Assembly (NCBI GenBank): GCA_903919545.1
Contig: CAIXIN010000176.1
Coordinates: forward strand, 1 to 42,699
Source: an uncultured bacterium
GTDB taxonomy: Bacteria; Bacillota_I; Bacilli_A; Erysipelotrichales; Erysipelotrichaceae
Direction of reading: 5' to 3'
Length of the DNA: 42,699 bases
Each line of letters begins with the position of its first letter. Position 1 is the stretch's first letter. Under the pieces are notes generated by a model, which saw nothing but the letters and a program-made list of their open reading frames with translations, did not search any database and was not told where the DNA came from. The translations under genes were made by a program, and so were the position numbers. Positions 3,639 through 38,830 of the stretch are shown one piece after another.

Positions 3639-4917
3639 GGGTTAATGCAGCGATGATGGCTTTGGCTGCTCGCTTTCCTGAAGATAAGGCATGAACAACG
3701 GTTTTAGGTCCAGTAACGGCGTCCCCTGCCGCATAGACAAAGGGAACTGAACTTTCTTGTTGATCATTAACGACGATTCTATTCATCTCATCCATAACTA
3801 AACCATTGATCAATTGTTCCTGATTACCAGATCCAATGGCCAATACCAATAAATCAGTTCTGAAGTTCTCAAAACCTTCATCATCTACAATGGTACCTCG
3901 TGTATTCTCTTCAAGTTTAACCAATTTTGTTTTCTTACATAAGACTTCAAGTTGATTATGGATAGGAAAGATCTTAATAGGATCCCTTAATTCATGGATA
4001 ACGACTTTATTATCGATGATGTCATCGACTTCAATATGTCGAGCAGGCATCATAGGAATGGTTCTTCGATAAATAAGATCTACTTTTCGATTCATAAGTG
4101 CGGCACTTTTTGCGACATCCATCGCAACGTTGCCTCCACCTACGACTAAGATACTTCTTACACTAGAATAAGCTGTTTCGAATTGATCTTTGCCCTTATT
4201 AACGTTTTCTAAGAAGATATCCCAAGTAACCACTTTAGGATGATCATATCCTTCAGCTTTGGTCATATTGATTTCAGAAGACCCTACGCCTATCATTAAG
4301 GCGTCATATTTAAAGAGAATATTTTCATACACAATGCTTTTCCCTATCTCTTCATTGAGAATAAAGCTTACTCCTAATGATTTCAATTCATTAATTCTTC
4401 GATCAAGCACTTCATTAGGTAAGCGATAAGAAGGTATCCCATAACGCAATACGCCTCCTATGTCTTCATTTTTATCAAATACAGTTACTTTTAATCCAGC
4501 TTTCGCACAATCATAAGCACAGGCAAGACCTGCAGGACCACTACCTATGATCGCAACTGTACCTTGCGCTAATGCTTGAATGCTTGGTTTATTTTGATAG
4601 GTATCTGAGATGTATCGTTCTAGTTTACCAATTTGAATGGGTTTACCCAGTTTATTGAATACACAGCTTCCTTGACATTGGATCTCTTGGTAACAGACTC
4701 TTCCACAGATCTCAGAGAAATCATTGAAAGATGAGGATATTTCTTTGGCTTCTTCTCCATTACCTGTTAAAAAAGCCTGGATCATACCAGGAATATTCAT
4801 GTGGGCAACACAGCCATCGACGCAAGGTTTGTGTTTACAATTCAAACAACGCCGTGCTTCAATGACAGCATCTTCATGATTAAATCCTGTTATTTCAGGA
4901 AAATGAAGATCACTCAT
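3631..4917 (-). CDS. GltD/NfnB-like NAD(P)-dependent iron-sulfur flavoprotein
   Basis: Soluble oxidoreductase of the glutamate synthase small-subunit family, 428 residues. The N-terminus carries eight cysteines in two groups (CLNCKHKPCVDGC near 24-36 and CGRVCYQEIQCQGSC near 70-84), the pattern that binds two [4Fe-4S] clusters. An FAD-binding GSGPAGLACAYDCAKAG and IGGVLRYGIPSYRLP follow, then a NAD(P)-binding VVGGGNVAMDVAKSA and a C-terminal AAGDAVTGP FAD motif. Family members pass electrons from NAD(P)H to a partner (GltB large subunit, NfnA, or others); no partner gene is in the window, so the substrate is unknown. The ATG at 4917 shares its A with the rnc TGA stop (TGATG); an in-frame TTG one codon earlier is less likely. 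It sits coupled between rnc and polC, an unexpected place for a redox enzyme. Confidence 0.85.
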   Translation of the reverse strand: MSDLHFPEITGFNHEDAVIEARRCLNCKHKPCVDGCVAHMNIPGMIQAFLTGNGEEAKEISSSFNDFSEICGRVCYQEIQCQGSCVFNKLGKPIQIGKLERYISDTYQNKPSIQALAQGTVAIIGSGPAGLACAYDCAKAGLKVTVFDKNEDIGGVLRYGIPSYRLPNEVLDRRINELKSLGVSFILNEEIGKSIVYENILFKYDALMIGVGSSEINMTKAEGYDHPKVVTWDIFLENVNKGKDQFETAYSSVRSILVVGGGNVAMDVAKSAALMNRKVDLIYRRTIPMMPARHIEVDDIIDNKVVIHELRDPIKIFPIHNQLEVLCKKTKLVKLEENTRGTIVDDEGFENFRTDLLVLAIGSGNQEQLINGLVMDEMNRIVVNDQQESSVPFVYAAGDAVTGPKTVVHALSSGKRAAKAIIAALTHE

Positions 4918-5600
4918 CAACGTACCAATTTTTCTAAGGCTTCTTTAGCGGCTGCCTGTTCCGCTCTTTTTTTAGAGTTGCCATAACCTTTTCCAAACAT
5001 CATCTTATCGATATATACGGCCATTTCAAATCTACGCTCATGAGATGGACCACTTTCAGATACCAAGATGTATTCTATAGAACGTTTATCATCTGCTTGA
5101 ACGAATTCTTGTAGACGAGTCTTATAATCATCGTTTTGATGTTTCTCAGATAATTCAAGATGATCGATGATGCTTCTTAAGATCTCATCGATATGTTTAA
5201 ATCCAGAATCAAGATAAAGAGCACCTAAGAAAGATTCAAACATATCCGCAACGATCGATTGTTTTTCGATCCCGTTTTCACGAACTTCACCCTGACCTAA
5301 TTTTAGATATTGATTTAAACCTAATAAAAGAGCCATTTTATATAAACTGGCTTCATTCACCAAAGAGGCTCTCATCTTGGTCATTTGACCTTCTGATAAA
5401 TGAGGTTTTATCTCATAAAGGTAACGAGCACTCCATAATTGAAGCACCGCATCACCTATAAATTCCAATCGTTGATTGTCTTCTGAATCGACTTCTGGGT
5501 TCTCGTTGAGATAGGAACTATGAATAAAAGCTCTCTCAATGAGCGCTGAGTCATGGATTTTTATAGAATGCTCAGTGAGCCAATCGTTGAGGTTTTTCAT
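4917..5600 (-). CDS. rnc: Ribonuclease III
   Basis: Double-strand-specific endoribonuclease for rRNA and mRNA processing, 227 residues, a normal length. The family signature NQRLEFIGDAVLQL is at residues 42-55 and the second acidic cluster VADMFESFLGAL follows. The C-terminal third is a dsRNA-binding domain ending in the usual Ala/Lys-rich helix (KRAEQAAAKEALEKL). I place the start at the ATG at 5600 (MKNLNDW) rather than the upstream ATG at 5609, because the upstream ATG overlaps a consensus TATAAT at 5608-5613 with an extended TG. Transcription from it would start at about 5600, giving a leaderless message. recG ends at 5619 just upstream. In Bacillus rnc lies next to acpP and smc; here it directly follows recG. 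Confidence 0.96.
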   Translation of the reverse strand: MKNLNDWLTEHSIKIHDSALIERAFIHSSYLNENPEVDSEDNQRLEFIGDAVLQLWSARYLYEIKPHLSEGQMTKMRASLVNEASLYKMALLLGLNQYLKLGQGEVRENGIEKQSIVADMFESFLGALYLDSGFKHIDEILRSIIDHLELSEKHQNDDYKTRLQEFVQADDKRSIEYILVSESGPSHERRFEMAVYIDKMMFGKGYGNSKKRAEQAAAKEALEKLVR

Positions 5601-5607
5601 GATTATC

Positions 5608-5616
5608 ATTATACCA
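5608..5616 (-). promoter_or_regulatory. Extended -10 promoter of rnc
   Basis: Minus strand reads TGGTATAAT, a perfect -10 hexamer with the extended TG. Only 7 nt separate it from the ATG at 5600, so the start site should fall on or beside the start codon. No convincing -35 is seen. It lies at the recG stop codon. Confidence 0.6.
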
Positions 5617-5618
5617 TC

Positions 5619-7619
5619 TTAATCTAAAAGTTGAGTGCTGTGTTCTAGTAGACAGTCTTCGATCCAAGGAATATAGAGAGGATCCTTTTGATGGGATATC
5701 ATCATTTTCGCATCGTTAAGTGAAGTCATTAAGATGTTTTGATCTAATACCACATTAGCGATCAAAAAGCTAGGGATACCGCTTTGTTTAAGCCCAAAGA
5801 TTTCACCAGGTCCTCTTAATTCAAGATCCTTTTCAGCGATGATGAAACCATCTGTAGTCTCTAAAAGAACCTTCATACGTTCTATGGCTGTTTCTTCTTC
5901 ACTTGCGCTTAGTAAGAAACAGTAACCTTCATCTAAACCTCTACCTACTCTACCTCTAAGCTGATGAAGTTGGCTTAAACCAAAGCGATCCGCATCATAG
6001 ATGATCATCACATTGGCACTTTGAACGTTGACACCTACTTCTATGACCGTTGTGGTGACTAAGATCTGTGTTTGATTGGATGTAAAGCGTTCTAGAACCG
6101 TTTCCTTGGCTTCTGTGCTTAGTTTTCCATGTAAGACATCAATGAGTACTGAGTTACCTAAGAGCTTTCTTAAGGTCTTAGTGACAGTATTGACGTCATT
6201 TAGTTCTAACTCCCCATCACTTTCAATCGCAGGACAGACCACATAGATCTGTTGTTTCTTCTCAATGAATGAAATGATCTTAGGGATCAATGGTTTTAAG
6301 TCTAGATCTTGGATAAGTGTCGTATGAACTTGTTTCTTTGATTGATGGTATTGGTCTATGGTAGAGATCTCTAGATCTCCAAACAATACGTTCGCCATGG
6401 TTCTAGGAATAGGTGTAGCTGTCATCAATAAAAAATCTACCTTCTCACCTTTCGCACTCAAGAGTCGTCTTTGATTGACCCCAAAACGATGTTGTTCATC
6501 CGCAACCACCAAACCACAATTTTCAAATTTTACATCTTCAGAAATCAAAGCATGTGTTCCAACTAAAACATCGATCTCATGATGAGCCAATCTTTCAAGG
6601 ATCTCTTTCTTTGTTTTAGAAGTCAAAGACGCATAAATAACTTCGACTTTCATCGATGAAGGTAAATAACTTTTTAAAGTAATGAAATGTTGTTTCGCTA
6701 ATATTTCTGTAGGGACAAGTAGTGCACTTTGAAAATGCGCGAGATGAGTTGCGTAGATCGCCAAGGCCGCTATAACAGTTTTCCCACTACCGACATCCCC
6801 TTGTAGTAAACGATACATTCGTTTAGGAGATTGTAGATCATTTAATACTTCATCGAGTACTTTACCTTGAGCTGAAGTCAAAATAAATGGTAGATGAGGA
6901 ATCCATGATTCTATGACTCTACGATCAAATAGTTTCATCTTTCCAGCTTGAACTTCGATATTTTCATATCGATCATACTGTAGTTTCGTTTGAAATCTTA
7001 AGAATTCTTCATATTTAAGGGTTCTTACGGCTTGTCTCAGTTCTTCTGAACCGGTAGGTTGATGAATCCACTTAATGGCTTGTTTGATCGATAAGAGTTT
7101 GTATTTTTCTTTGAGATCTATAGGAAATTCTTGAATAAGCGCTAAATCTCTTAAAAGAAGCGCTTTCTCGATGGCTTTTTGAAGATCGCTTTGAGATAGA
7201 TCTCTATGAACACGATATACAGGATGAATCCCTAATAAGGTAGATAAGGCTTGTCCCTTATATTGAGTGACAGTGATCGAATGATCCCCTTCATATTTAC
7301 CGAAAATGGTCATAGTTGAGGTAATGTTTGATATCCAAGGCCGATTAAAAATCGTTAAATTAAACAATCCTTGCTTAGTTTGAAACATAAAACGAGATAC
7401 ACTTAATTTACCTCTAATACGGGTTGTCTTTACAGGTTGAACGATGATGCCTTCTAAACTGATACGATCCCCTTTTTTCCATAATGAAACAGGAATATCT
7501 TCAATGGTTTCATAGCGTGATGGATAATAACGCAATAAAGACTCCAATGAATCCAATTGGACCTCATGGAGTTTTTCAATCATTTTAGTGCTTAGTTTTA
7601 AGACAGATAGGTTACCCAT
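5619..7619 (-). CDS. recG: ATP-dependent DNA helicase RecG
   Basis: Branch-migration helicase that reverses stalled forks and processes Holliday junctions, 666 residues, within the family range (about 670-690). The N-terminal wedge/OB region comes first (RYYPSRYE, then an OB fold to about residue 140), followed by the SF2 motifs: Walker A GDVGSGKT, the RecG-type box ADEQHRFG, MTATPIPRT, and motif VI QLRGRVGRG. The C-terminal IAEKDLELRGPGEIFG is typical of RecG. The ATG at 7619 comes straight after the U-rich tail of a hairpin located between fakA and recG, and no ribosome binding site is visible before it. The Bacillus order yloU-fakA-recG is kept apart from the missing sdaA genes. Confidence 0.97.
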   Translation of the reverse strand: MGNLSVLKLSTKMIEKLHEVQLDSLESLLRYYPSRYETIEDIPVSLWKKGDRISLEGIIVQPVKTTRIRGKLSVSRFMFQTKQGLFNLTIFNRPWISNITSTMTIFGKYEGDHSITVTQYKGQALSTLLGIHPVYRVHRDLSQSDLQKAIEKALLLRDLALIQEFPIDLKEKYKLLSIKQAIKWIHQPTGSEELRQAVRTLKYEEFLRFQTKLQYDRYENIEVQAGKMKLFDRRVIESWIPHLPFILTSAQGKVLDEVLNDLQSPKRMYRLLQGDVGSGKTVIAALAIYATHLAHFQSALLVPTEILAKQHFITLKSYLPSSMKVEVIYASLTSKTKKEILERLAHHEIDVLVGTHALISEDVKFENCGLVVADEQHRFGVNQRRLLSAKGEKVDFLLMTATPIPRTMANVLFGDLEISTIDQYHQSKKQVHTTLIQDLDLKPLIPKIISFIEKKQQIYVVCPAIESDGELELNDVNTVTKTLRKLLGNSVLIDVLHGKLSTEAKETVLERFTSNQTQILVTTTVIEVGVNVQSANVMIIYDADRFGLSQLHQLRGRVGRGLDEGYCFLLSASEEETAIERMKVLLETTDGFIIAEKDLELRGPGEIFGLKQSGIPSFLIANVVLDQNILMTSLNDAKMMISHQKDPLYIPWIEDCLLEHSTQLLD

Positions 7620-7620
7620 A

Positions 7621-7643
7621 AAAGAAAAGGGCTAAAGCCCTTT
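7621..7643 (-). terminator. Intrinsic terminator-like hairpin after fakA
   Basis: Minus strand AAAGGGC-TTTA-GCCCTTT (7626-7643 region) followed by TCTTTTA. The fakA TAA stop is inside the stem and the T-rich tail runs into the recG ATG at 7619. It may end most asp23-fakA transcripts or act as an attenuator for recG. Confidence 0.65.
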
Positions 7644-9261
7644 ATTCAACACCGATAATATACGAATAAACCGGTTGATGTCCTAAGTGGACTTCCACTT
7701 CGCAGGCATCGAAATGCTCAGTGATGTAGGAGATCAGTTCATCCTGTTCTTCTTCATTGACATCTTCTCCAACGATGACAGTGATTAGACCATCCTCTGA
7801 AGTAACCAATTGATCCATTAAACGTTTAGCTGCTTCTGTTTTAGAAGGAACTGAAACTACAATAGATTTATTCAAGATACCCATATAATCATTGGCACTG
7901 ATGCTTACTCCATCCATATTACTATCTTTTATGGCGTAAGTAACCAAGCCTGTTTTAACGTGTTTAAAGGCTCCGGTCATTTCTTGGATGTTCTCATGTA
8001 CATCGACTTGTGGATTAAACATGACACAAGCACTTAAACCTTGAGGGATACTCTTGGTTGGGATGACATGAACATCCAGATCATCCATTAAGGACTCTGC
8101 TTGTTGAGCAGCCAAGATGATGTTTGAATTGTTAGGTAAGATAAAGATATGTTCAGCGTTGAGTTCTTTGATTGCAGCGACGAAATCTTCTGTTGCTGGA
8201 TTCATGGTTTGACCACCACTAATGACCACGTCTACTCTATATTCATTTTTAAATAATTTAGATAGACCTTCTCCAGAAGCTACAGCAATAATGCCGTATT
8301 TCTTTTTAGGTTTAGGTTCAATAGCAATCGTAGAAGCATGTTCATGCTGAAGTTGCATGTTATCAGATTTTATTTTTAAGAGTTCTCCATAAGCTTGGCC
8401 TAGATTTAAGACATCACCAGGGCTTAAGGTATGAACATGGACTTTTACGATGTCTTCATCTTGAACGACGACGATCGAATTGCCTTGTGCTTCTAATTGT
8501 TCTCTTAAATGTGCTTCTGAGAAATCAGGAAGGACTTCAGGGTTTAATCGAATGATGATTTCAGTACAGTATCCAAACTCATCATTTTCGAGTTGAGATT
8601 GGACCCCTTCTATTTCACCAGTATCTTCTTGAAGTTCAATTGAAATACCTGTTAATTCTGAAAAGAAACCTTCTAATACAACGACATATCCTGCTCCACC
8701 ACTATCAACGACACCTACTTCTTTTAAGACAGGCAATAGATTAGGAGTATTCTCAAGAGAGATCTTAGCTCTTTTGATCATATAATCTAAAACATCAATA
8801 ATGTTTTTAGCATGCTTTTGATCAACATATTGTAAAGTCTCATTTGAGCTTTCACGTAAGACAGTTAATATAGTTCCTTCAACAGGACGCATAACTGCTT
8901 TATAGGCTACTTCTGTGCCTCTTACAAAGGCCAAAGCAATATCATGAGCATCTAATTCATTTTTGCCTTCTACGCTTTGAAAGAATCCTCTAAAGATTTG
9001 AGATAAGATAACACCAGAGTTACCTCTAGCACCCATCAATAATCCTTTAGATAAAGTTTTTGCGATTTCTCCGATATGCGTACTTGGATGAGCTTGAGCT
9101 TCTTTGACACCAGCAGTGAAGGTTAAGTTCATGTTGGTACCTGTATCTCCGTCTGGGACCGGGAATACATTAAGGGCATCTATTTCACGATGGTGGTTAC
9201 TAAGATTGTTGGCTCCACTGACCAACATCGATTTGAATTTATTACCGTTGAGTTTTTCCAT
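7642..9261 (-). CDS. fakA: Fatty acid kinase catalytic subunit FakA (DAK2/YloV family)
   Basis: ATP-dependent kinase that phosphorylates fatty acids held by FakB proteins, feeding exogenous acids into phospholipid synthesis. 539 residues, close to the family's usual 550. The N-terminal DAK2 domain shows NVFPVPDGDTGTNMNLT (metal-binding aspartates), GARGNSGVILSQIFRG and VVDSGGAGYV; the C-terminal part corresponds to the regulatory DegV-like half. It lies 4 bases after asp23, the same pairing as yloU-yloV in Bacillus. No fakB is in the window. In Bacillus the nearby fapR-plsX-fabD-fabG-acpP genes lie between recG and rnc; here they are absent, which fits (but does not prove) reliance on imported fatty acids. 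Confidence 0.93.
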   Translation of the reverse strand: MEKLNGNKFKSMLVSGANNLSNHHREIDALNVFPVPDGDTGTNMNLTFTAGVKEAQAHPSTHIGEIAKTLSKGLLMGARGNSGVILSQIFRGFFQSVEGKNELDAHDIALAFVRGTEVAYKAVMRPVEGTILTVLRESSNETLQYVDQKHAKNIIDVLDYMIKRAKISLENTPNLLPVLKEVGVVDSGGAGYVVVLEGFFSELTGISIELQEDTGEIEGVQSQLENDEFGYCTEIIIRLNPEVLPDFSEAHLREQLEAQGNSIVVVQDEDIVKVHVHTLSPGDVLNLGQAYGELLKIKSDNMQLQHEHASTIAIEPKPKKKYGIIAVASGEGLSKLFKNEYRVDVVISGGQTMNPATEDFVAAIKELNAEHIFILPNNSNIILAAQQAESLMDDLDVHVIPTKSIPQGLSACVMFNPQVDVHENIQEMTGAFKHVKTGLVTYAIKDSNMDGVSISANDYMGILNKSIVVSVPSKTEAAKRLMDQLVTSEDGLITVIVGEDVNEEEQDELISYITEHFDACEVEVHLGHQPVYSYIIGVE

Positions 9262-33800: not shown

Positions 33801-34745
33801 ATGAGAAACAACAAAGCCATTAGTAAAATCGTATTTAAACTCAGCATGATTACTGTTTTGACTGTATCACTTTTAAGTTTGGGTTTTTATGTAAGAGGAT
33901 TGATTGAAAACATTAAAGTTGATCCTGATCCAGAACCAGAGCAAACCTACACCGTTACACTCAACGACTATAAAGTCTATCAATTTATGGATGTCCAATA
34001 TGATTTCATTATGGCCAATGTTACAATCACCAGTAATAAAGCCCTGAATCTATCTCAAAATCCATACACCAGTTCAGAAAACATCAATCTAGCAAATACA
34101 TCAGAATATACCACCTACTTACAAAACCAAGGATTTGATTTAAAATGTCCATTACCTGAGTCCTCAACTGAATTGACCCAAACCGCATGTTTGTTTATTC
34201 CAGTCGTTAATCGATCATTAAATGAATTGATCCTCAAAGTCTCAATCGATCGAATCTACAACTTGTCTTTCAATTTAAATGAGATCTCGCATGCGGGAAC
34301 TCGCGAAATGTTAGGTGTTGAAAATCAATTGCCTGACTACACAGCCACCATCATCGATAAAAGTCTTGTAAGTGTTCATTCATTTTATACCCTCAAAGAA
34401 AACGGGGACCATGATGAAGTCGTTTTTAGTTCTCAAACCCAGATTTTCGGATTCCAAGTTACTTTAGAAAACAATACAACTGTTCCACTAAATATAGAAA
34501 GTGCCTATATTATTATTGATGGGAAAGGTACATTCCAATCTGTTGATTCAAGTTATTTAAATGATGAATACATCCCAATGATTGGACTAGAATTCACTGG
34601 AATGAAAACTGCCTATTTGTTTATGGATATTACAGATGAGACCATTGATCTCTATAGTTTACAAAATGAGACAATTCATGTGTTTATAAAAGTCAGTACA
34701 AACAATTCCTTTATTGAGATTGTATTTCTTGGTGATACACAGTGA
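33801..34745 (+). CDS. Signal-anchored extracellular protein of unknown function
   Basis: 314 residues; no recognised family. A basic N-terminus (MRNNKAISK) and one hydrophobic segment (about 12-33, SMITVLTVSLLSLGFYVRGL) anchor or export it, followed by a Pro/Asp/Glu linker (DPDPEPEQ) and about 270 residues of beta-rich sequence with many Asn, Thr and Ser. There are two cysteines near residues 114 and 129 (FDLKCPLP, TACLFIP). The stop codon overlaps the GTG start of the large hydrolase gene (GTGA), so both are made together, and the two proteins probably work on the same surface structure. No dockerin, cohesin or sortase signal was seen. Confidence 0.8.
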   Translation: MRNNKAISKIVFKLSMITVLTVSLLSLGFYVRGLIENIKVDPDPEPEQTYTVTLNDYKVYQFMDVQYDFIMANVTITSNKALNLSQNPYTSSENINLANTSEYTTYLQNQGFDLKCPLPESSTELTQTACLFIPVVNRSLNELILKVSIDRIYNLSFNLNEISHAGTREMLGVENQLPDYTATIIDKSLVSVHSFYTLKENGDHDEVVFSSQTQIFGFQVTLENNTTVPLNIESAYIIIDGKGTFQSVDSSYLNDEYIPMIGLEFTGMKTAYLFMDITDETIDLYSLQNETIHVFIKVSTNNSFIEIVFLGDTQ

Positions 34746-37700
34746 GAAAATACGTAGTTTCACTTCTACTAGTGATCAATATCATTTTGCCCAATCCAAA
34801 AGCAATAAAAGTAAATGCTTTAGATTGTTCGCCAAACAATTTTTCTGTTGATATCGTCGATGGTGTAAATGCGAATCTAAATATAGGATGTTTTGTTTTA
34901 TCTGAGAATGGCTATACATCCGCTTTGGAGGTGTTTGAAGCCAAAAAAACCGAGTTATTGAATTCAAACGATGTCATTAAACCGAATGTAACTATATCGA
35001 TTACCTATAGTGGTGATAACCCTGTAACAGCTTTAGTTGAAAGTGGTTACTCAAAAATTATTCAAGCAGATAGAGCTATGGCATACTCTCAACCATACTA
35101 TAGTGATACTGATGGCACCATGAACATATATACTTCTGGTTCATTATCTACAGCATATACATATATGAATGCTAGAAATCCCCTTTTCTATTTTTCCACT
35201 TTCAAAAGAACCACCCTTGTTGACAAAAATGATCCAAGTTTAACAATATCAAGTTTTTCTGTTGAAATATCTGTTAATGGAGCTAAAGGCTTTGTTAAAG
35301 CATCGGAAGTCCAATTTGTTCCGTTAGTATATGTCGAGAAAAAATTATATTTTACTAAATATGATTTCTATAATCCAGATCCTAACAATCCATTACTAAA
35401 ATTTCAAACTAAAACAATAATACCAAAACAAACTTACTACACAGTTGTTGATGTAGATAATGTTATTAATCGTTATGGAACTTATTCTCAACCTATACAT
35501 CAATTATCTCAAATTGTTACTTTAGCAAATTCATCTACTTCAACGTTTCCTATAGGAAAAGCTCCAGAATGGTTACCAGTTGGTACCTATTATAGTCAAG
35601 ATGGAATAACTTTTTACTATGATATAGATCTTAAAAAACCGATTTATTATCCAAACACGACCGTTATTGCTCACTATTACAACTACTATGCGTATAATAA
35701 TTTGCGCTCAAAAACGCAATACTCCTATAGTGATTTAGATGCTTATTTAGCTTACTATATTAGTGTAAATCCAAGAGCAGATTTGGCCCCAAGTATGCTA
35801 TTTAATAACAATCAAATACTAATAAATTCGCAGGATATTTACGGTGTTAATGCGGTATATATACTTGCTTTAGCTGGTCAGGAGAGTAGTTTTGCTAGAA
35901 ACTACAAAGCACAAAACCAAGCTAACTTTACCCCTTATGCAAATCAAATAGTCAAAAATGCGACTACATTGGAACCGATTAACTATACTGTAACTACTTA
36001 CTGTAAGTACTTTCCATCAAATTCATTTAAATCTCTTTCAAGTGGTGTTATAAAAACCTATTCCTGTACTGATGCTATTTTGCCTCTTGGTTCATCAATT
36101 ATACTAGACTTGACACTCGAATCACCAATCAATCTGAGTGTTGATCATTTCTGCAAAATTTATACAGGTGATTACGATAAATATGCAGATGAGATTAATG
36201 TTATCCATTATTGTAAAGGTTTGAACAATCTTTTCGGAATTGGTGTTTATGATGATGGCTCTAGTCCAGGAAACGGATTCGCTTCTACTCAAGCTTGTGT
36301 TGATTACTTAAATGGGTCTTTATTAAGAGGTTATTTCAACTATCAAAACTATAAATTTTACGCGACAAATATTGGCAATAAAGGCGCTAGCATAAATACT
36401 AAATATGCTTCTGATCCATGGTGGAGCACAGGAGTAATAAGATATGCATATTATATTGATAGATATCTTGGATTTCACGATTACAATTCTAATATTATCG
36501 GTATTAAAGATCCAGTGAGCAGTGTTTCTGGAAAAGTATATAAAGATAAAGAACTTACAACATTATTGTACGAAATACCAACTAGAGCTATGAATTATCC
36601 ATTCTTAGTACTAGAAGGTATGATGGTAAACGGCAAATTAATATATAAGATTCAAACAACAAATCCAATAAACGACGATGGTTCAGTGAATGTTTCAACG
36701 AGTTCTGCGAATATTGCATATAATTTTGAGAAATCTATTGGTTATATAGAAGCCAATCAAATTACAGAATATATTTCAAGTTTCATTACAGGAGTTACAA
36801 ATAATGGATTATATAATGTCGATAAGCAAATCTTTTTCAATAATGGGAGTGCTCAATTAAACGGTGAATCTATAGTGTCTGGTTATAATGTTACCCAAGA
36901 AGGTTCTTATTCACTTGTGGCAACAAGTTTGACAGGTGCTAGACAAACTATTGTGTTTACCATCGATAAAACAGCCCCAATTATCACGCTAAATAATTAC
37001 AATAAACAACCTACAAATCAAAACATTATCGTAACTGCAACCGTAAATGAAGGACTACTAGACACTGATACTATAACATTTACAGAAAATGGTTCTTTCA
37101 TATTCAAAGCTACAGATGAAGCTGGCAATGTATCAGAAAGAACTGTCACCATCGATAACATTGATTTGATTCCGCCAACCATTACCATTGAAGATTTTGA
37201 CAATACTACAATAAGTGCTACTGATATCATCGTAAATGCTCAAACAAATGAAGGAACTCTTAACACTGACTCATATACCTTTATGAGAAATGGTTCATAT
37301 ACATTTACTGCGACAGATCTCGCAGGAAATGTAAGTTCAAAGCTAGTTACCGTTAGCAATATTGTGAAACCTGTATTATTGTCATATGACAGTGAACTGA
37401 TTGGTGGCAAATTAGAAGCCAATATTAGCTCAATACCAGTTGTTTCTGGTTCTACTGTTTATTCTACAGATCAAGTATCATTTATTGTAACTCTGAATTC
37501 CAAGTATCATGTCTATAAATGGAACTTCAATTTAGAATCATTAAATACTCGATTAACCACTCTAACCTTAGATTATCCCTATTTAGATACAAATGTTAGT
37601 TTAGAGTTTTATATGGAAGCAGATCTAAACGACGATGCTAAGGTCACTACAACCGACTTGGTTCAACTAAGAAGATACATTGCTGGTTTAGATACTCCAA

Positions 37701-37798
37701 ATGAAAAGGCCGTACTGTCCGCCGATGTTAATAATGATGGCAAAGTCAGTACGACCGATTTAGTTAAAATCAGAAGAATGTTGGCTGGACTAGAGTAG
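34742..37798 (+). CDS. Secreted GH73-like glucosaminidase with Ig-like repeats and C-terminal dockerin
   Basis: 1018 residues, probably exported (signal peptide about 1-26). Order: SH3-like region (about 112-195), a hydrolase domain (about 330-580), another SH3-like region (597-675), three Ig-like repeats (about 698-743, 745-806, 811-874), then a type I dockerin (961-1018). The hydrolase shows the GH73 signatures AGQESSFARN (likely acid Glu381), NNLFGIGVYD (495-504) and YASDPWW (555-561). About 100 residues with four Cys (421, 442, 471, 491) are inserted between the first two. Dockerin calcium loops start at D961 and D995. By family it cuts GlcNAc-containing wall glycan. It begins with GTG, coupled to the gene upstream. 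Base use is more AT-rich than in neighbours. Confidence 0.85.
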   Translation: MRKYVVSLLLVINIILPNPKAIKVNALDCSPNNFSVDIVDGVNANLNIGCFVLSENGYTSALEVFEAKKTELLNSNDVIKPNVTISITYSGDNPVTALVESGYSKIIQADRAMAYSQPYYSDTDGTMNIYTSGSLSTAYTYMNARNPLFYFSTFKRTTLVDKNDPSLTISSFSVEISVNGAKGFVKASEVQFVPLVYVEKKLYFTKYDFYNPDPNNPLLKFQTKTIIPKQTYYTVVDVDNVINRYGTYSQPIHQLSQIVTLANSSTSTFPIGKAPEWLPVGTYYSQDGITFYYDIDLKKPIYYPNTTVIAHYYNYYAYNNLRSKTQYSYSDLDAYLAYYISVNPRADLAPSMLFNNNQILINSQDIYGVNAVYILALAGQESSFARNYKAQNQANFTPYANQIVKNATTLEPINYTVTTYCKYFPSNSFKSLSSGVIKTYSCTDAILPLGSSIILDLTLESPINLSVDHFCKIYTGDYDKYADEINVIHYCKGLNNLFGIGVYDDGSSPGNGFASTQACVDYLNGSLLRGYFNYQNYKFYATNIGNKGASINTKYASDPWWSTGVIRYAYYIDRYLGFHDYNSNIIGIKDPVSSVSGKVYKDKELTTLLYEIPTRAMNYPFLVLEGMMVNGKLIYKIQTTNPINDDGSVNVSTSSANIAYNFEKSIGYIEANQITEYISSFITGVTNNGLYNVDKQIFFNNGSAQLNGESIVSGYNVTQEGSYSLVATSLTGARQTIVFTIDKTAPIITLNNYNKQPTNQNIIVTATVNEGLLDTDTITFTENGSFIFKATDEAGNVSERTVTIDNIDLIPPTITIEDFDNTTISATDIIVNAQTNEGTLNTDSYTFMRNGSYTFTATDLAGNVSSKLVTVSNIVKPVLLSYDSELIGGKLEANISSIPVVSGSTVYSTDQVSFIVTLNSKYHVYKWNFNLESLNTRLTTLTLDYPYLDTNVSLEFYMEADLNDDAKVTTTDLVQLRRYIAGLDTPNEKAVLSADVNNDGKVSTTDLVKIRRMLAGLE

Positions 37799-38830
37799 TT
37801 TTCCTAAATCTTGCCAGGTAGCCAATACCATTAGTAGAATCATAACAAGAGCACTTCCATACATCAAAGCCAATTCAAATTTCTTATTGATTGGTTTTTT
37901 TATGATCATTTCAACCAGGATGAGAAACACTCTACCACCATCTAGAATTGGAAGAGGTAATAAGTTAAAGACCCCTACATTTAATGACAAGATCGCTGTT
38001 AAGTAAATCATATTGAGTAAACCATAGCTTGCTTGTGTCTGAGTGACCTCTATGATCCCTAAGGGACCGCTCACCGATTGTAAACCAACACCTGTTAATA
38101 ACTTACCTATCAATAAGAACATGCCGTAGATCGTGCCTATCATGGTATTGAAGGCATATCCAATACCTTCAAAAAGATTAATAGTTACTTTCTCTGAAGG
38201 AGGTAACATGACCCCTAAGAAATATCGTTGATTCTCTTCATCATAAACTGGAGTAACTGATATTGTTAGTTCTGTCGTTCCTCTTAAAAGTGTAAACGTG
38301 ATTTCATTGTGGTAGAGCTGAGTATAAGTAATCACATCATCAAAATTCTTTGGGATAATGGAAGATCCATCCACGAAAGTCATTTTTAAGATCTTATCAT
38401 CCAATTGTAAACCTGCTGCTTCAGCAGGTGAATTTTCAACTACTCCCGCAATCACCGCTTTTGGTGATTGATAGATATATCCTAAGTTCCAATTGATTCC
38501 AACAAAGAGTACAAACGCTAAAATAAAATTCATAAAGATGCCTGACAGCATAATGATGATTCGTTGATATTTCTTTATGCCTAATAGTGTTCTTTCATAA
38601 GGGACTTCAACATCTATCATTGCTTCCCCTGCCATATTGACAAAACCACCAAAAGGAAACAATCTTAAATTGTATGAGGTTTCTTTTCTTTTAAATCCCC
38701 AGATTTTAGGACCCATACCCAATGAAAATTCCTGACAATAGACATTAAAAAGTTTAGCACTCGCTAAATGTCCTATCTCATGAACCATGATGATTACGCT
38801 TAAGATGAGCAATGTGTATAGTATAGACAT
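37790..38830 (-). CDS. rseP: Site-2 intramembrane zinc protease RseP (RasP)
   Basis: Multi-pass membrane metalloprotease, 346 residues, which cuts anti-sigma factors and leftover signal peptides. The zinc motif HEIGH is at 17-21 in the first membrane helix, a PDZ domain lies at about 120-200 (GVVENSPAEAAGLQLDDKI), and the third zinc ligand is in LLPLPILDGGRV. An AAGGAG site lies 6-7 nt upstream. Its last 9 bases overlap the end of the convergent dockerin protein gene. In Bacillus dxr precedes it and proS-polC follow; neither dxr nor proS is here. Confidence 0.96.
   Translation of the reverse strand: MSILYTLLILSVIIMVHEIGHLASAKLFNVYCQEFSLGMGPKIWGFKRKETSYNLRLFPFGGFVNMAGEAMIDVEVPYERTLLGIKKYQRIIIMLSGIFMNFILAFVLFVGINWNLGYIYQSPKAVIAGVVENSPAEAAGLQLDDKILKMTFVDGSSIIPKNFDDVITYTQLYHNEITFTLLRGTTELTISVTPVYDEENQRYFLGVMLPPSEKVTINLFEGIGYAFNTMIGTIYGMFLLIGKLLTGVGLQSVSGPLGIIEVTQTQASYGLLNMIYLTAILSLNVGVFNLLPLPILDGGRVFLILVEMIIKKPINKKFELALMYGSALVMILLMVLATWQDLGKLL

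Follow-up and report, generated by a model that had tools for sequence, protein, structure and literature searches.

Cohesin-dockerin pairs are known as Lego pieces for the digestion of external polymers, both in cellulosomes, such as that of Clostridium thermocellum, and outside them. Non-cellulosomal cohesins and dockerins have been the subject of an earlier survey (Peer et al., 2009, as cited in PMC2930009); cohesins occur in family 33/84 glycoside hydrolases of Clostridium perfringens (PDB 2VO8, 2JH2, 2W1N), and ScaE of Ruminococcus flavefaciens is a surface anchor with one cohesin (PMC2930009). Proteins of R. bromii join other modules with autolysin domains (PMC5814915). LytB of Streptococcus pneumoniae (PDB 4Q2W, 7PJ3) separates daughter cells and is held to the wall by choline-binding repeats (PMC4929436). 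Here we describe a 42,699-nucleotide stretch of DNA from an uncultured gut-type Firmicute of the Erysipelotrichaceae (contig CAIXIN010000176.1 of assembly GCA_903919545.1; hereafter the window), one gene of which encodes a LytB-like hydrolase of glycoside hydrolase family 73 (GH73) that ends in a dockerin. We consider it likely that this protein belongs to a dedicated cohesin-dockerin tether that keeps a hydrolase for cell separation on the wall of the cell that makes it.

The 1018-amino-acid protein runs from a signal peptide through a LytB-like N-terminal part and the GH73 region, two immunoglobulin (Ig)-like repeats and a further stretch to the C-terminal dockerin. It shares with LytB the four active-site residues of GH73 and a WW-like element before them, whose motif (YYSxDGIxFY) aligns well between the two; unlike LytB, it ends in a dockerin, carries Ig-like repeats and has an extra loop inserted close to the active site. 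Taken alone, the window protein scores below the Pfam cut-off for PF01832 (22.1 bits against 30.2, with no match in a six-frame search), a shortfall probably due to the long insertions that separate the catalytic glutamate from the NLFG motif. A profile of alignment A1, which comprises the window protein and eight homologues, found S. pneumoniae LytB (7PJ3) as its best PDB match (E 9e-36) and also Autolysin E (4PI7; E 7e-12), and an Erysipelothrix homologue (L165) passes PF01832 at 66.4 bits. Residues E381, F498, Y555 and W561 are invariant in A1 and line up with LytB Glu564, Phe580, Tyr633 and Trp639, the catalytic glutamate and three aromatic pocket residues named in PMC4929436. The GH73 signatures claimed in an earlier, sequence-only reading of the window are therefore borne out: judged by alignment, the assignment is weak for the single sequence and firm for its family. 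The window's genus, taken as a whole, carries an insertion between the catalytic glutamate and NLFG, which the other genera in A1 lack; a segment of about 52 residues in this interval has no counterpart in the nearest orthologue (G001) and looks like a diverged tandem duplication.

The same reading had described a complete two-loop dockerin with repeats at D961 and D995, and this was confirmed, positions included. PF00404 matches residues 960-1014 with E 6e-11 (42.7 bits, cut-off 22.9), and in a phmmer search of the PDB the window protein matched dockerins of cellulosomes (E 8e-8 at best). The two calcium loops, of 12 residues each, are intact (D961-L-N-D-D-A-K-V-T-T-T-D972 and D995-V-N-N-D-G-K-V-S-T-T-D1006), with the F-hand ligand positions D1, N/D3, D5 and D12 all present (D961-N963-D965-D972 and D995-N997-D999-D1006). 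Of the accessory domains proposed, the Ig-like repeats are plain by eye as two tandem copies, with Pfam support of just E 0.04, while SH3-like regions found no Pfam match up to E 1 in the window protein and no significant alignment to the LytB SH3b domain. This is the one protein with PF00404 over the cut-off in the window genome, which is about 80% complete. A second candidate on contig C18, half a motif in a 439-amino-acid Lcl_C protein, fell under the cut-off and was rejected.

The sequence-only reading predicted a cohesin-bearing scaffold on the cell surface and an assembled complex. The window genome does encode one cohesin, and it sits on a protein of surface-anchor type, so that the absence of any cohesin, which that reading had named as a refutation, does not apply; in related species a dockerin-GH73 and a cohesin even share an operon. 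It was the sole match over the Pfam cut-off in a six-frame search (G000:C142:5128-5412, PF00963, 24.6 bits against 24.1), within a protein of 550 amino acids that consists of a signal peptide, the cohesin at about residues 30-160, two Cadherin-like domains, a C-terminal transmembrane helix and a basic tail (RRPRKLKR). Because this match is marginal and an hmmscan of the whole protein, unlike the six-frame search, did not list PF00963, we examined the call twice more. When a profile of 11 related anchor N-domains (A2) was searched against the PDB, all 16 matches were cohesins (best E 5e-5). Structure models covered two anchor types, one with a cohesin (L163) and one with an Ig-like domain (L191, discussed below); for the AlphaFold model of L163, an orthologue of the window-genome anchor, cohesins took ranks 1-25, with 2VO8 the best (Z 15.6, root-mean-square deviation 2.0 A, 125 residues aligned). 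G001 and G002 repeat the order Rieske-type protein, cohesin protein, GAPDH, and in G006 GAPDH likewise follows the cohesin gene, which argues that the contig carrying the cohesin is not a stray. Two adjoining open reading frames near the cohesin gene (L090 1513-2732) look like an insertion sequence transposase pair and are absent at the matching place in G001.

What stood of the predicted scaffold is a cohesin on a membrane-anchor protein; what did not is a scaffold with several cohesins. A cellulosome or other assembled multi-enzyme complex is not supported by this draft genome, with its one cohesin and one full dockerin. The arrangement resembles cellulosomal type I pairs in its two domain families, two calcium loops and symmetric dockerin halves; it differs in joining one enzyme to a single-cohesin membrane anchor. 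No scaffoldin with more than one cohesin was found, and the substrate is probably peptidoglycan of the cell itself. The C. perfringens glycosidases are likewise non-cellulosomal and include 2VO8, whose fold comes nearest to that of the modelled anchor cohesin. Their cohesin is part of a secreted glycosidase, whereas here it stands at the tip of a non-catalytic protein anchored in the membrane by its C terminus. ScaE also presents a single cohesin on a surface anchor but is attached by sortase (LPXTG) and holds a whole cellulosome, in contrast to the transmembrane helix and the proposed wall-hydrolase load of the window-genome anchor.

The genomic association of hydrolase and anchor was examined in a sample of 98 genomes, in which cohesin matches in genomes of other families, often in large open frames, were not counted as anchors. 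Dockerins were present in all 15 genomes with a cohesin over the cut-off and in 36 of the 83 without one. Hydrolase and membrane anchor are neighbouring genes in relatives across the whole order: of 42 dockerin-GH73 genes whose 3' neighbour could be read, 38 have the anchor gene next, within about 20 bases or overlapping, and the four exceptions all belong to the window's genus, where the cohesin lies at another locus. None of 52 dockerin-less GH73 genes has an anchor gene next; three apparent cases (L180, L184 and L204) were rejected when C-terminal dockerins were seen by eye. The association of an adjacent anchor with a dockerin on GH73 (Fisher P 4e-22) is descriptive only, given that related sequences are counted and that a dockerin was the reason for choosing 20 of the loci. 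Many dockerin-less GH73 genes are instead followed by another membrane protein gene, which encodes a PASTA protein in the case examined. PASTA-domain proteins adjoin dockerin-less GH73 genes at L155 12600-14447 and L100 4191-6131, and may be another means of retaining this hydrolase.

The window's genus divides into four species in which dockerin and cohesin occur together and four in which both are absent; in the second group the GH73 gene persists in its housekeeping neighbourhood and lacks the dockerin. In three of these (G003, G004 and G005) a large protein adjoins rseP, and that of G005 has seven PASTA repeats. A DinB tree, which covers seven of these eight species, places those with dockerin and cohesin in one clade, so their co-occurrence counts as one event, not four. 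G014 and G042 have DinB and SRAP genes near the hydrolase, as the window does, and in both the cohesin gene immediately follows the hydrolase on its 3' side; the cohesin gene probably moved away from the hydrolase in the window's genus.

We propose that the gene product is a secreted LytB-type endo-beta-N-acetylglucosaminidase whose C-terminal dockerin would clasp, with calcium, the single cohesin of the membrane-anchored G000:C142 protein. So held, the enzyme would stay on the envelope of the producing cell and most likely cut septal peptidoglycan there, in daughter-cell separation or wall remodelling. That the hydrolase is tethered through cohesin and dockerin seems to us highly probable; that separation or remodelling of the own wall is the tether's purpose we hold with moderate confidence. 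A tethered own-wall hydrolase is the likeliest reading because LytB is the nearest characterised enzyme, because relatives link the gene pair to ftsZ, and because the host is walled. In G013, G044, G049 and G056, which represent four genera, the hydrolase and anchor genes immediately precede an FtsA-like gene and ftsZ; FtsZ was identified by Pfam in G013 and by sequence in the other three, and the match of the FtsA-like gene, to PilM_2, is weak. The host has three penicillin-binding transpeptidase genes and is thus taken to be walled, and a wall-less, Mollicute-like host was rejected. Action on peptidoglycan, one of the substrates suggested in the sequence-only reading, agrees with the LytB homology and the ftsZ linkage.

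Predation and host mucus, suggested alongside it, have no specific evidence and are less likely. They fall within the main rival explanation, in which the tether is real and the enzyme acts on foreign glycans (the walls of other bacteria, chitin-like polymers or mucin) for feeding or predation. It is the main rival because dockerin-tagged subtilisins, which could serve degradation, neighbour the cohesin in two sister species, and because mucin-degrading cohesin-dockerin systems are known: non-cellulosomal systems of gut Firmicutes act on host glycans (PMC12997984), with the C. perfringens cohesin/dockerin glycosidases and the Limousia mucinolysome as precedents. Several related genomes also have cohesins within very long open frames of 1000-2800 amino acids. 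The closest solved homologue is nevertheless a cell-separation enzyme, the gene pair adjoins ftsZ in the four genera above, and the GH73 gene is kept among housekeeping genes genus-wide even without a dockerin, so that we judge feeding on foreign glycans clearly unlikely. The subtilisins also bear on a somewhat less unlikely, though still doubtful, alternative in which GH73 and subtilisin dockerins compete for the one cohesin, making the anchor a mini-scaffold of a small mixed complex whose load is set by expression. In G001 and G006 the dockerin-subtilisin adjoins the cohesin gene and has a dockerin (TTDLVxLRRxLAGLE) that hardly differs from the GH73 one. The window genome lacks the subtilisin at this place and, incomplete as it is, has one dockerin over the cut-off; one cohesin, moreover, takes one dockerin at a time. 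The least probable alternative, to which we give little credence, is that the dockerin is a leftover or has a partner other than the G000:C142 cohesin. Some proteins with dockerin-like pairs of EF-hands have no known cohesin partner, the interaction here is a predicted one, and the cohesin is unlinked in the window's genus; a leftover would sit poorly with ligand residues that are all intact, with halves that are symmetric, and with an anchor gene and dockerin that segregate together.

Several points weigh against a tethered own-wall hydrolase. The whole-protein hmmscan missed the cohesin, and the modelled cohesin is that of the orthologue L163 and not the window genome's own. The GH73 and cohesin genes are unlinked in the window's genus, where the division into four species with both domains and four with neither fits a single gain or loss, and the linkage to ftsZ comes from other genera. 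The neighbour counts include related sequences and the 20 selected loci. Computation shows the domains, the catalytic and calcium-binding residues, the cohesin with its membrane-anchor architecture and the tight genomic pairing among relatives; physical binding, calcium dependence, enzyme activity and a septal role are inferences. On our best reading, what would be new is the non-cellulosomal use of the clasp on a cell-separation hydrolase, single-cohesin anchors and non-cellulosomal pairs being known already; the CC (Creative Commons)-licensed literature searched gave no precedent for a separation hydrolase that bears a dockerin and has a membrane cohesin of its own. A clasp known from the digestion of external polymers seems here to hold a separation hydrolase on the cell's own surface, in a tether conserved over many genera and with a specificity that can be read from sequence.

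The dockerin recognition residues change with the type of anchor. A cohesin is the first anchor domain in G014, G040, G042, many named Erysipelotrichaceae metagenome-assembled genomes and two from the Eubacteriaceae, while an Ig-like domain of about 95 amino acids takes its place at the sampled loci of the order's second family and some of the first, and leads into a Cadherin-like domain and a C-terminal transmembrane helix like those of the cohesin anchors. For the model of one such anchor (L191; N-domain predicted local distance difference test score about 90), Ig-like domains matched at Z of about 10 and the cohesin 2VO8 at Z 9.0. By sequence, no link between the Ig-like domain and cohesins was found (hhalign aligned 20 columns, and a PDB search gave no significant match); the modelled N-domain appears Ig-like and may still be a divergent cohesin. 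The dockerins differ accordingly in motif, DLVxLxR occurring with cohesins and DYVxIKNHIMG with Ig-like domains. All 28 halves paired with a cohesin have L, I or M at residue 13 from the loop start, where 32 of the 38 others have Y; position 18 is mostly R in the former and N in the latter. Identity at the recognition positions is 84% between the halves of one protein (above all 10,000 within-class shuffles), 41% between proteins of the same anchor type and 18% between types. Such a match between halves is as expected if two interchangeable faces were to bind one receptor. We suggest tentatively, at somewhat less than even confidence, that the dockerin receptor was swapped within the order and that the Ig-like N-domain is a non-cohesin dockerin receptor. 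Such a receptor, if real, would go beyond the known kinds of cohesin-dockerin pair, and the natural pairs, cohesin or Ig-like, offer material for asking how receptor specificity changes.

Dockerins also turned up in a prophage of a sister species (L096; G002:C79, offset 20000). The C-terminal part of a tail/antireceptor protein (4913-7417) has a dockerin-like segment just under the cut-off (21.0 bits), and the gene directly after it (7431-7679) encodes an 82-amino-acid protein with a hydrophobic N terminus and a full dockerin (E 6e-14). A scan of IMG/VR yielded no relatives of the prophage dockerin, with two weak phage matches. The prophage might in this way attach to the cohesin on its host's surface, or mask it.

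Table 1. Coordinates of the features discussed, in window positions unless a locus (L) is named.
Feature	Position	Strand	Basis
Upstream gene, 314 aa, N-terminal transmembrane helix and extracellular region	33801..34745	+	no Pfam family
Dockerin-bearing LytB-like GH73 protein, 1018 aa	34742..37798	+	open reading frame, Pfam, family profile
Signal peptide, about residues 1-26	34742..34819	+	sequence, by eye
WW-like motif YYSQDGITFY, residues 283-292	35588..35617	+	invariant YYS.DG..FY, aligns with LytB WW region
GH73 catalytic region, about residues 320-580	35699..36481	+	PF01832 359-426; LytB 491-577; family profile
Catalytic Glu381 (LytB Glu564)	35882..35884	+	invariant in A1, aligned to LytB; PMC4929436
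Extra segment of about 52 aa, residues 428-480	36023..36181	+	alignment, by eye
Phe498 of NLFG (LytB Phe580)	36233..36235	+	A1 alignment, LytB alignment, PMC4929436
Pocket residue Tyr555 (LytB Tyr633)	36404-36406	+	A1 alignment, LytB alignment
Pocket residue Trp561 (LytB Trp639)	36422-36424	+	A1 alignment, LytB alignment
Ig-like repeat 1, about residues 746-805	36977..37156	+	tandem similarity; Pfam weak
Ig-like repeat 2, about residues 809-870	37166..37351	+	Big_13 E 0.04; tandem similarity
Type I dockerin, residues 958-1018	37613..37795	+	PF00404 E 6e-11
Dockerin calcium loop 1, D961-D972	37622..37657	+	sequence, alignment
Dockerin calcium loop 2, D995-D1006	37724..37759	+	sequence, alignment
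RseP-like M50 site-2 protease, convergent with GH73 gene	37790..38830	-	Pfam
Ig-like anchors 3' of dockerin-GH73	L110-L126, L165, L180-L191		
Dockerin-tagged subtilisin-like protease next to cohesin gene, sister species	L093 4894-7815	-	
Dockerin-tagged subtilisin-like protease next to cohesin gene, second sister species	L099 4020-7004	+	

The closest named relatives of the host are Erysipelotrichaceae metagenome-assembled genomes. The GH73 gene lies among envelope genes, and an RseP-like protease gene adjoins it in G001, G002 and G006 as well. Its reading frame begins with GTG and overlaps by four bases the stop end of the upstream gene for the 314-amino-acid protein. This single-transmembrane gene stands upstream of the hydrolase throughout the genus, and G014 and G015 have similarly placed genes.

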